Positions 9,760-20,212 of a stretch of 58,456 nucleotides of DNA are shown here, piece after piece. Below the pieces are notes generated by a model. The model made no database searches, was not told the DNA's origin, and saw nothing but the letters and a program-made list of their open reading frames with translations. This stretch comes from Candidatus Pacearchaeota archaeon (GTDB lineage Archaea; Nanobdellota; Nanobdellia; UBA10117; JAFCGA01): assembly GCA_017608345.1 (NCBI GenBank), contig JAFCGA010000006.1, positions 1-58,456 of the forward strand, written 5' to 3'. The first letter of the stretch is position 1, and every line of letters begins with the position of its first letter. The translations under genes were made by a program, and so were the position numbers.

Positions 9760-10487
9760 AATCAGAACATAAGCTATCTATAGTGATTCCCACGCTAAAT
9801 GAGGAAGAGTACTTACCTAAATTACTTTACGCGTTAGTCAGACAGTCCTTTAAGGATTTCGAAGTAATTGTTGTTGATGCGAAGTCAAAAGATAAGACAG
9901 AAGATCGAGCGAAATATTTTAGTAGTCATTTAAACTTGAAATTCCTTTCTTCAGATAGAGCTTCTCCAGCAATACAAAGAAACCTCGGAGCTAAAGCAGC
10001 GAAGGGAGATTATCTTCTCTTCTTAGATGCGGATGTTATTGTAACTATTAATTTTCTAAGAGATATTGTTCACGAATTCGATGAGAGATATATTGAATGC
10101 GCGACATGTCTATTAATTCCAATAAGTGATAAATTAATTGATAAGATGATGCATGGAGCGGTGAATTTTATGGTTAGAACAGCACAATATACAGATCCAT
10201 ATGCTCCTGGCGCGTGTATTCTATGTACTAAGAGATTATTTAATCGGATTTTAGGATTCGATGAGTCTTTAACGCTATGTGAAGACCATGATTTGGTTGG
10301 TAGAGCAAAAGAGCTAAGCAAATTTAGAGTTCTGCGTAGTCAGCGTATCTATCTTTCGGTAAGACGCCTAAAAAAAGAAGGACGATTGAAGTTGATAAGT
10401 AAGTATATGTATGTCGAACTGTGCCGCAAATTATTGGGCAGCTCTCCAAATGGAGTTGAATATTCATATGGTGATTACAAAACCTGA
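9756..10487 (+). CDS. Glycosyltransferase family 2
   Basis: This 243-aa GT-A enzyme shows SIVIPTLNEEEYLPKLL, VVDAKSKDKT, and the DAD metal-binding motif in LFLDADV; CEDHDLVGRA is the acceptor-side ED. It has no membrane segments after the catalytic domain. It is a paralogue of the next gene, with the same motifs in the same order. It probably adds one sugar in a surface-glycan pathway. Confidence 0.9.
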   Translation: MKSEHKLSIVIPTLNEEEYLPKLLYALVRQSFKDFEVIVVDAKSKDKTEDRAKYFSSHLNLKFLSSDRASPAIQRNLGAKAAKGDYLLFLDADVIVTINFLRDIVHEFDERYIECATCLLIPISDKLIDKMMHGAVNFMVRTAQYTDPYAPGACILCTKRLFNRILGFDESLTLCEDHDLVGRAKELSKFRVLRSQRIYLSVRRLKKEGRLKLISKYMYVELCRKLLGSSPNGVEYSYGDYKT

Positions 10488-11205
10488 ACTAACTATCGTG
10501 ATTCCAACGCTAAATGAGGAAAAATATCTCCCTAAGCTGTTGGCTGCATTAGTAAATCAGACATATCAGGATTTTGAAGTTATTATTGTTGATGGAAACT
10601 CAAAAGACAATACCGTTGAAATTGCAAATAGTTTCAAAAAGATCCTTAAACTCCGAGTAATTATCGAAAAAGAACGCAGCATAGGCCTTGCTAGAAATCG
10701 CGGGGGAGGGGTCGCAAAAGGTAAGTATATTTATTTTTTAGACGCAGATGTGCTTCCCGCTAGGAATTTTCTAGAGAAGACCATGCTAGAAGCCAAATAC
10801 CGCGAATTAGATATTGCGACAGCCCGCCTTAGGCCGATTAGTAAGCGGAGAAGAGATTATCTACTGCGAATTTTAGCTAATTCTACAATGCTATTTTCTC
10901 AATATTTCTTCCCAACAGCATTTGGATTTTGCATTTTATGCACCCGAGAAGTTTTCGATAAGACCAAAGGATTTGACCCCACAATTAAGTTAGGAGAAGA
11001 TAATAATTTTGTTCGACGAGCAGCAAATAAAGGTTTTAAATTCAGAGTTATGAAAAAACCAAAGATACCCGTATCTGTTCGCAGATTAGATTATGAAGGA
11101 CGATTAAAGATGCTACTTAAATATTACACTTGTGCCATACATTGGTTCATTCTCGGACAAGAAGCTAGAGACAATCGGTTTAATTACGAATTCGGTAATT
11201 ATTAA
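10468..11205 (+). CDS. Glycosyltransferase family 2, tandem paralogue
   Basis: This is a 245-aa GT-A enzyme with TIVIPTLNEEKYLPKLL, IVDGNSKDNT, FLDADVLP and LGEDNNFVRRA. The ATG at 10468 is preferred because the catalytic domain begins seven residues later and the overlap with the upstream gene is then only 20 bases; in-frame starts at 10411 and 10450 lie deeper in that gene. It closes the operon and is followed by the tRNA-Gly gene on the other strand, three bases after its stop codon. Confidence 0.88.
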   Translation: MVITKPELTIVIPTLNEEKYLPKLLAALVNQTYQDFEVIIVDGNSKDNTVEIANSFKKILKLRVIIEKERSIGLARNRGGGVAKGKYIYFLDADVLPARNFLEKTMLEAKYRELDIATARLRPISKRRRDYLLRILANSTMLFSQYFFPTAFGFCILCTREVFDKTKGFDPTIKLGEDNNFVRRAANKGFKFRVMKKPKIPVSVRRLDYEGRLKMLLKYYTCAIHWFILGQEARDNRFNYEFGNY

Positions 11206-11207
11206 TA

Positions 11208-11545
11208 TGCGCCGTCCGGGATTTTCCGTGCCTCCGGAGTTAAAGTTCTTTCTTCCAGACCGGAACTAGTTCCGGTTGGCCACGCGGAATTTTATTCCGC
11301 TTGGTCCCCAGGGTTTCTTTCTTTCAAGAAAGAAAGGCTGTTTGAACCCGGGCCATCAGCTTGGAAGGCTGAGGTCCTACCATTTTCCACAACCTTTTCG
11401 TATTTTCGGAGCGAGCAAAGCTCGCGTAGTAAGATGCCTTTCTTTTGGCACCTTACCTTTCCTTGCTCAACGAGTAAGGCACGAGGAAGCTATGCTTCTG
11501 ACGTGTCTCTTCGCGAAAGAAAAGGCAGTTCTAGACCAACGGCGC
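11208..11545 (-). tRNA. tRNA-Gly(UCC) with D-loop and T-loop introns
   Basis: Exons join to a normal tRNA of 70 nt plus discriminator A. The acceptor is GCGCCGT/ACGGCGC, the D-stem GTCT/GGAC, and the anticodon arm TCAGC-CTTCCAA-GCTGA (anticodon UCC at 11365-11363). The T-arm is CCGGG-TTCAAAT-CCCGG. Intron 1 (about 11530-11383, 148 nt) interrupts the D-loop after TAG, and intron 2 (about 11340-11222, 119 nt) interrupts the T-loop after TTCAAA. Both contain strong hairpins, for example CCTTTTC/GAAAAGG in intron 1 and a palindrome ACCGGAACTAGTTCCGGT in intron 2. The anticodon loop is intact. Splice positions may shift by one or two bases. A TATA-like TTTATAAAC lies near 11569-11577. Confidence 0.88.
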
Positions 11546-15153: not shown

Positions 15154-15157
15154 TTGC

Positions 15158-15317
15158 GGGTCTGGTGAGATTCGAACTCACGACCCTTCGCTATCTCCAC
15201 TATCTTTTTTCCGCCAGCGCTTTTCTAAGGGGCGGTTAGGAGGCGAATGCTCTATCCAGGTTACTCGTCTATTCCTTCTTTTCCAAAGCGAAAGAAAAGG
15301 CTCTGAGCTACAGACCC
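15158..15317 (-). tRNA. tRNA-Arg(CCU) with D-loop and anticodon-loop introns
   Basis: Exons join to a 74-nt tRNA. The acceptor is GGGTCTG/CAGACCC, the D-arm GCTC...GAGC and the anticodon arm TTCGC-CTCCTAA-GCGAA (CCU at 15240-15238). The T-arm is GTGAG-TTCGAAT-CTCAC. Intron 1 (15302-15261, 42 nt) interrupts the D-loop between CAG and CCTGG. Intron 2 (15236-15193, 44 nt) is at the canonical 37/38 site and contains a GCCC/GGC-type hairpin. No CCA is encoded. The 3' end is four bases from the stop of the upstream convergent gene. Exon arithmetic (74+42+44) equals the gene length exactly. Confidence 0.92.
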
Positions 15318-19388: not shown

Positions 19389-19498
19389 GCCTCCGTAGCT
19401 CAGTCTGGTAGAGCGACAACCTCGTATCGTAGAACAAGTTCCGCGGAACAGACTGCGTCAGTAAGTTGTAGGCCGTGGGTTCGAATCCCATCGGGGGC
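19389..19498 (+). tRNA. tRNA-Thr(CGU) with intron
   Basis: Exons give a 73-nt tRNA: GCCTCCG/CGGGGGC acceptor, GCTC...GAGC D-arm, ACAAC-CTCGTAA-GTTGT anticodon arm (CGU at 19423-19425), and GTGGG-TTCGAAT-CCCAT T-arm. A 37-nt intron (19427-19463) sits at the canonical 37/38 site and contains a GTTCC-GCG-GGAAC hairpin. A TATA-like TATATTTAAAAAG at 19354-19366 is 25 bases upstream and lies right beside the divergent MGMT-like gene. The 3' end abuts the stop codon of the convergent PAC2 gene. Confidence 0.92.
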
Positions 19499-20212
19499 TT
19501 ATCCCAAATAACTAATCTCTTTTTTCTCTTTCTCTTTAACCGCAGCAGCTCCTTTTTGCATAAGATCTTTTAACTTATTCTCGAAATTAACAGCTTGCTT
19601 CAACAATGGAGCATATGGTACTTTCAGACCTAAATAAGCATCCAAAGTTTTTATTATTCCGGCAGCTGCGGTGCTATCAGGCAATTTTGAATGAGCTTCA
19701 GCAAAGATGAAAGAAGTCTTTATATTCTTCGGAGCGTTTAGCATCAACGCACCGCTAATTCCCATAATAATACCTTCCTTGAGAGGTTTTAACTTAATTT
19801 TAGAAAATTTATTCATAGCAGCGGAGTTATTAGTCTTAAAATAAATACTTGAAGTAGTATTCATAACTGGAGAACCGACACCTTCTAGAGAAATGATCTC
19901 TTTTACTTTCAAACCGCGAGCGATTTTCAATAGCGCATCAGCAATATCCCATTCAAAGCCTTTTACGCTAGAAATTGCGTGAAATATTATTAAATTGTGC
20001 TTTTTTACGTAGAAGATTTCTAATGCTCGGCGTGTTCGACCTTCGTGGACTGCTGCCATTGGCGGTGCCTGTTTATTATGCAAATATCCGATTGGTTTAG
20101 CATCCAAATGATTAATTAAAAATTCAGTAGCAATTGTACCAACAAAACCGAAACCTGGAAAACCTTCGACAATTGTAGTATTCAAAGGTTTTTCTTTCAG
20201 AACTATTTCCAT
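19499..20212 (-). CDS. PAC2 family protein (proteasome assembly chaperone-like)
   Basis: This 237-aa protein has the PAC2 signature: EGFPGFGFVGTIATEFLI at the N-terminus, QAPPMAAVHEGR, SVKGFEWDIADALL and GISGALML. Archaeal PAC2 members such as PbaA/PbaB bind proteasome-like assemblies, and the GFPG loop is the family mark. The C-terminal tail is Lys/Glu rich. It is monocistronic, with a TATA-like TTATATAA near 20232. Confidence 0.87.
   Translation of the reverse strand: MEIVLKEKPLNTTIVEGFPGFGFVGTIATEFLINHLDAKPIGYLHNKQAPPMAAVHEGRTRRALEIFYVKKHNLIIFHAISSVKGFEWDIADALLKIARGLKVKEIISLEGVGSPVMNTTSSIYFKTNNSAAMNKFSKIKLKPLKEGIIMGISGALMLNAPKNIKTSFIFAEAHSKLPDSTAAAGIIKTLDAYLGLKVPYAPLLKQAVNFENKLKDLMQKGAAAVKEKEKKEISYLG

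Follow-up and report, generated by a model that had tools for sequence, protein, structure and literature searches.

Several archaeal tRNA genes are interrupted at positions other than the usual one; in Thermoproteales, bulge-helix-bulge (BHB) introns at non-canonical sites have been described (Sugahara 2008; Fujishima 2010, as reviewed in PMC4090602; PMC8450103). The published size range of archaeal tRNA introns is 11-129 nt (PMC4090602), and the record intron load is that of P. calidifontis, with 71 introns in 46 genes (PMC8450103). Introns in the 16S rRNA of Thermoproteales are also described (PMC4496867). In other archaea, loops at the specificity-loop site of the splicing enzyme EndA go together with a relaxed recognition of introns (PMC12397907). 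Bacterial genomes carry DNA repeats, BoxC, PIT and TMECO, that are intrastrand triplex motifs; purine-motif triple helices are stated not to form in RNA (PMC4666352).

In this work we analyzed a tRNA-Gly(UCC) gene of Candidatus Pacearchaeota archaeon. The window, i.e. the whole stretch of DNA that was analyzed, comprises the 58,456 nt of contig JAFCGA010000006.1 (contig C7 of the 1.05-Mb, 15-contig assembly GCA_017608345.1, estimated to be 88% complete).

Results

The tRNA-Gly(UCC) gene lies on the minus strand (11208-11545) and, as deduced from the cloverleaf of its spliced form, is composed of three exons and two introns. Read from 11545 towards 11208, exon 1 (11531-11545; tRNA positions 1-15) has the sequence GCGCCGT-TG-GTCT-AG and is followed by a D-loop intron of 148 nt; exon 2 (11341-11382) extends from the D-loop to the T-loop (TGGTA-GGAC-C-TCAGC-CTTCCAA-GCTGA-TGGC-CCGGG-TTCAAA) and includes the anticodon UCC (11363-11365) in the loop CTTCCAA, which lacks an intron; after a T-loop intron of 119 nt, exon 3 (11208-11221) runs from T60 to the discriminator A73 (T-CCCGG-ACGGCGC-A). 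Removal of both introns in silico yields a complete canonical 71-nt cloverleaf with the anticodon UCC. A preliminary description of this locus had given a 71-nt mature tRNA in 338 bp with inserts of 148 and 119 nt, which proved right to the base; the spliced cloverleaf also bears out its view of two introns at non-canonical sites and a free anticodon loop, and places the gene on the minus strand, the description having given none. The gene had been thought to escape ordinary finders, and indeed neither ARAGORN, even with long introns allowed, nor Rfam at its gathering score detects it. With a finder written for interrupted tRNAs, a kind of check that the description had suggested, the gene scores 23.6, the best score in four Markov-shuffled whole genomes being 18.4, with none at 20 or above. 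The description had also suggested looking for another Gly(UCC) gene, and none was found in the genome, estimated to be 88% complete; the remaining Gly genes are those for GCC and CCC. A convergent reading frame (10411-11205) ends 3 bases from the end of the gene and, judged by eye, looks like a glycosyltransferase.

The limits of the D-loop intron may be set in two registers. The 148-nt register (11383-11530, minus strand; GTCT-AG^A...GGAA-AA^T) is that of the homologous introns of Gly-CCC and Val-UAC and includes one mismatched pair; the alternative, of 146 nt (11384-11529, minus strand; TCTA-GA^A-CTGCC...GGTTG-TGGA-AA^A), gives a better BHB with a complete 4-bp central helix. The T-loop intron (11222-11340, minus strand; TTCA-AA^C...GGAA-AA^T) is inserted at site 59/60, with a junction common to 17 other tRNA genes; it has only three central pairs (UUC/GAA), and the next helix is interrupted. 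At the four junctions, where the description had proposed to look for BHB motifs, BHB-like motifs are present, those of the T-loop being relaxed and that of the D-loop carrying the mismatch in the 148-nt register. Both introns begin with (C)AGCC or CTGCC followed by a run of T/C.

A single gene with the EndA domain PF01974 was found in this 88% complete genome, and RtcB is present. Among solved structures, this EndA is closest to the enzymes of Nanoarchaeum equitans (3iey) and M. jannaschii (1a79), from which it differs by a lysine-rich N-terminal extension and a short insertion, HGVKKC, where crenarchaeal enzymes have their specificity loop. We infer that it accepts the Gly(UCC) and T-loop junctions; the Gly(UCC) transcript would be cut at its four BHB-like junctions by this enzyme, the sole EndA found, and sealed by RtcB.

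The whole genome was read in stretches and the splice combinations were solved, which gave 42 tRNA genes, 37 of them interrupted, with about 65 introns. The total is approximate: the automatic splice solver misplaces the introns of Val-UAC, Tyr, Leu-CAA and an Ile(UAU)-like gene and skips the intact Gln(CUG), and these five genes were read by eye. Only Gln(UUG), Gln(CUG), His, Ser(CGA) and Thr(GGU) are intact. T-loop introns are present in 18 genes, each leaving TTCAAA^...^T (T60); many of these genes are interrupted in the D-loop as well, where only a few sites are used, and three introns each are present in Lys(CUU), Ser(GCU) and Ala(GGC). The introns reach 155 nt in the D-loop and 141 nt in the T-loop, and the shortest have about 26 nt. 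The preliminary description had considered two introns of this size exceptional, a judgment that does not hold at the genome level; since 37 of the 42 genes are interrupted and larger introns are present, the Gly(UCC) gene is ordinary for its genome. Two further interrupted genes lie within the window: tRNA-Arg(CCU) (15157-15317, minus strand), with introns of the same population in the D-loop (42 nt) and the anticodon loop (44 nt), and tRNA-Thr(CGU) (19389-19499, plus strand), with a 37-nt anticodon-loop intron.

The spliced cloverleafs score about the same as intronless tRNAs, and the cut sites recur. Many introns show a full BHB, in which the 5' exon forms four pairs with the 3' end of the intron, together with 3-nt bulges and a closing intron helix; for instance, complete D-loop motifs are found in Gly-CCC (GTCT-AG^A-TACC...GGTA-AGAC-AA^T) and Leu-UAA (CCCG-AG^A-TACC...GGTA-CGGG-AA^C). 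The T-loop introns rest on UUC/GAA, i.e. three pairs and occasionally four. Near-identical introns occur in different tRNAs and sites, as in the T-loops of Phe and Ala(UGC) and the D-loops of Val(UAC) and Tyr.

Some other loci in the genome were recorded. tRNA-Asn(GUU) has a second gene, whose body looks bacterial and which carries a 121-nt intron with mirror-image purine strands about 58 nt apart (G000 C1 17668-17861, minus strand). Beside the real Val(UAC) gene, a fragment that resembles the 5' part of this tRNA precedes a unit of the kind described below (G000 C1 ~60654-60812, minus strand); it is possibly a trace of duplication during the spread of the introns. At G000 C12 15664-15760 a tRNA-Leu has the spliced anticodon AAG, which is unusual for archaea, and its intron may be misplaced.

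Many of the introns share a core, the Y-R-R' unit, present at about 50 places in the genome and formed by a pyrimidine strand (Y), a complementary purine strand (R) with which it forms a hairpin, and, 6-15 nt after R, a third strand (R') that is R reversed. Examples of Y, R and R' are TTTTCTTTTCTT, AAGAAAAGAAAA and AAAAGAAAAGAA; TTTTTCTCTTTC, GAAAGAGAAAAA and AAAAAGAGAAAG; and TTCTTTCTCTT, AAGAGAAAGAA and AAGAAAGAGAA. The units consist of A/G and T/C strands with few G-C pairs. A scan of both genome strands that was blind to the mirror gave 104 Y:R hairpins, as compared with 6 in a Markov control, and in 40 of them the mirror is at least 87%. When three relatives were included, units with an asymmetric R were perfect only as mirrors in 44 cases and only as direct repeats in none, while 4 were perfect as both and 8 as neither; in the same set, the mirror is perfect for 26 of the 31 distinct patterns of R (permuted mean 4.8, maximum 11). 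Strand exchange between Y:R and Y:R' was rejected, given that it predicts direct repeats and no case is perfect as a direct repeat only.

Of the 40 units, 21 are in tRNA or 16S introns, all of them in the sense orientation of the gene, and 19 are elsewhere, mostly intergenic and without a constant orientation. In the intergenic form the linker, CTAGGCGTCC, is conserved, and there is a GCC:GGC extension, whose pairing also varies as ACC:GGT and GTC:GAC; its 3' hairpin domain is also found in the introns of Val(UAC), Tyr and Phe. At C1+240246 the linker is C-UUCG-G, which makes R and R' the two arms of one hairpin. In several introns, e.g. those of Thr-UGU, Leu-UAA and Asn-GUU, a GGG after R' faces a CCC in the Y-R loop. 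The 16S rRNA gene (G000 C2 86058-87720, minus strand; L023 6058-7720) has two introns of this family, after GGATTAGATA and after GGAGCGGTAAAA; it measures 1663 nt against a model of 1478 positions and contains two Y-R-R' units. The 23S rRNA gene has no introns.

In the Gly(UCC) T-loop intron, Y is TTTCTTTCTT (11326-11335), its Watson-Crick partner R is AAGAAAGAAA (11314-11323), and the linker CCCTGGGG (11306-11313) separates R from R', all on the minus strand. R' is split by an insert formed by two CCA-hairpin-TGG copies (11255-11304, minus strand): the A at 11305, beyond the insert, together with AAGAAAGAA (11246-11254, minus strand) gives AAAGAAAGAA, the exact mirror of R, and the layout of Y, R and mirror R' (stem of at least 8 nt) appears only when this nested insert is left out. 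The D-loop intron has a degenerate unit, recognized from its sequence and by comparison with the Val-UAC intron; Y (TTTTCTTTC, 11515-11523, minus strand) and an R'-like purine strand (AAAAGAAAGG, 11437-11446, minus strand) remain, and R is disrupted. The preliminary description had noted strong stems in both introns, and the 338-nt strand is in fact 6 SD more stable than its dinucleotide shuffles; what had gone unnoticed is that these stems belong to a common element, dispersed through the genome and built on a mirror repeat. Simple hairpins as the sole account of the stems are ruled out, as R' follows R as its mirror.

The insert is a module of 48-61 nt with two tandem CCA...TGG hairpins that recurs at about 20 places and frequently interrupts Y, R or R'. 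Its removal in silico leaves a perfect mirror core at ten of the places that were scored, including the Gly T-loop intron, one of the ten being the opposite-strand reading of another; a unit with two modules (C2+42806) likewise becomes a perfect mirror. Module locations include 11255-11304 in the window, C2 42806-42927 and C4 54156. The module looks like a second mobile or expandable element.

Among relatives, the same Y-R-R' layout is present in three genomes of one other family of the same order (G002, G007 and G016), with different linkers, e.g. CGCTCCCGGGCATCT; the linker pattern of the present genome does not occur in its exact form in 55 relatives, the stretches read of G005 and G053 have no units, and G004 gave one weak hit. 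T-loop introns also occur in G007 and in G053, which belongs to the same class. In G007, a different family of T-loop introns (TTCAAATCTAAGACCCAAGGGGGCGC...) is common to three tRNA genes (L122, L123 and L124). The tRNAs visible to Rfam are 5-15 in nine genomes (G007, G016, G002, G010, G005, G025, G041, G052 and G053) and 25-36 in others; several of the low-count genomes of the class have good completeness, and several are in the same order. The disruption of tRNA genes seems to have arisen several times in the class.

Discussion

We consider it probable that Gly(UCC) is a functional single-copy tRNA gene, as part of an explanation that takes in its two introns, their family and a three-strand core. 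Both introns would descend from a repeat family that spread, presumably by transposition, through the tRNA genes, the 16S gene and intergenic DNA, and also in at least one other family of the order. In each unit Y would pair with R as a hairpin, and R', after a short linker, would run antiparallel to R with A on A-U/T and G on G-C, which is the layout of an intrastrand purine-motif triplex; selection would have kept the three strands in step while the sequence changed. The relaxed T-loop junction, the D-loop mismatch and the degenerate D-loop unit count against this explanation. A search of the genome gave no gene for a Y1-family transposase or a reverse transcriptase, and transposition by either enzyme was discarded.

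From the sequences, such a triplex may form in RNA or in DNA. A triplex in RNA would conflict with the literature (PMC4666352); the sense bias points to RNA, the chemistry to DNA, and a minor-groove third strand is another option. The tentative idea that, against the accepted rule, spliced introns of an archaeal order have a natural RNA purine-motif triplex among their conserved building blocks is one that we regard as rather unlikely.

It is plausible, if short of probable, that the units are DNA elements whose purine-motif triplex forms in single-stranded DNA, like the BoxC/PIT/TM repeats of bacteria, with folding in replication, in a transcription bubble or in a transposition intermediate, and with BHB junctions that permit their removal from tRNA genes. 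TMECO shares the Y-R-R' layout and, as an oligonucleotide, folds into a stable triplex in vitro; purine-motif triplexes reportedly do not form in RNA (PMC4666352), and about half of the units are outside known RNA genes; nonetheless, a purely DNA-level element does not predict the sense orientation in 21 of 21 cases within tRNA and 16S genes, and no Y1 transposase was found.

The third strand could instead act in RNA by occupying the minor groove of Y:R, much like the A-rich loops of H-type pseudoknots. The topology fits this equally, R' being antiparallel and directly after R, and the sense bias, the A-rich purine third strand and the GGG that faces the CCC of the Y-R loop in Thr-UGU, Leu-UAA and Asn-GUU are in agreement; we find it unlikely, given that A contacts normally need no G opposite G-C, yet the positions of G are followed exactly.

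It is improbable that these are ordinary BHB introns, multiplied as in Thermoproteales, in which the mirror simply results from A/G-rich sequence of low complexity and brings no structure with it. Similar tRNA introns are known to have been transposed on a large scale in Thermoproteales (PMC4090602), and A/G tracts with few Gs are partly symmetric, to the point that permuted pairs already reach an identity of about 0.78. Against this stand 26 perfect mirrors in 31, where permutation gave at most 11, and 44 mirrors to no direct repeats; besides, the layout is conserved in another family with different linkers, and the mirror is perfect once the nested inserts are left out. To our knowledge, no copying process yields mirror repeats.

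The relaxed junctions and the degenerate D-loop unit could suggest a tRNA pseudogene killed by two insertions, which is very improbable for a gene with all stems and conserved positions intact that is the only Gly(UCC) found and shares its condition with 36 other tRNA genes. Self-splicing introns, of group I or similar, are hardly credible: the structure is strong and group I introns occur in archaeal tRNA and rRNA genes, but a search with E values up to 10 gave no match to any intron family of Rfam, group I included, introns down to about 26 nt have the same junctions, and the BHB geometry recurs.

One proliferating population of introns makes nearly all tRNA genes of this archaeon appear absent when standard tools are used, and genes missed in this way bias completeness estimates and codon-decoding studies for the class. 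The mirror rule joins archaeal BHB introns with intrastrand triplexes, fields that are apart in the literature searched; the approximately 50 units are a natural covarying test set for a purine third strand in RNA or single-stranded DNA, and the recurring junctions and nested inserts make archaeal intron movement directly testable.

BHB introns at such sites, intron proliferation and intrastrand triplex repeats are already known singly; in the literature searched, no report was found that combines the three, and Rfam has no family for the Y-R-R' introns. As in Thermoproteales, the introns occupy many tRNA sites including 59/60, with up to three per gene and similar sequences across tRNAs, and the load is also 1.5 introns per gene (71 in 46 genes in P. 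calidifontis, about 65 in 42 here). In contrast, the present introns belong to another archaeal lineage, with a single EndA gene found instead of an alpha2beta2 EndA; they reach 155 nt, and their mirror-repeat core is also intergenic and in the 16S gene. The two 16S introns resemble those of Thermoproteales (PMC4496867) in being archaeal 16S introns and differ in sharing their core with tRNA introns. With BoxC, PIT and TMECO the units share a pyrimidine strand, a complementary purine strand, a second purine strand, short loops and many copies per genome. Unlike those repeats, they are archaeal and A/T-rich rather than G/C-rich, and the G/C-rich TMECO/BoxC motif CCCTCNCCC... is not matched by them; they are also found in spliced tRNA and 16S introns, where they are always in sense, and they carry conserved linkers, a 3' hairpin domain and nested twin-hairpin inserts.
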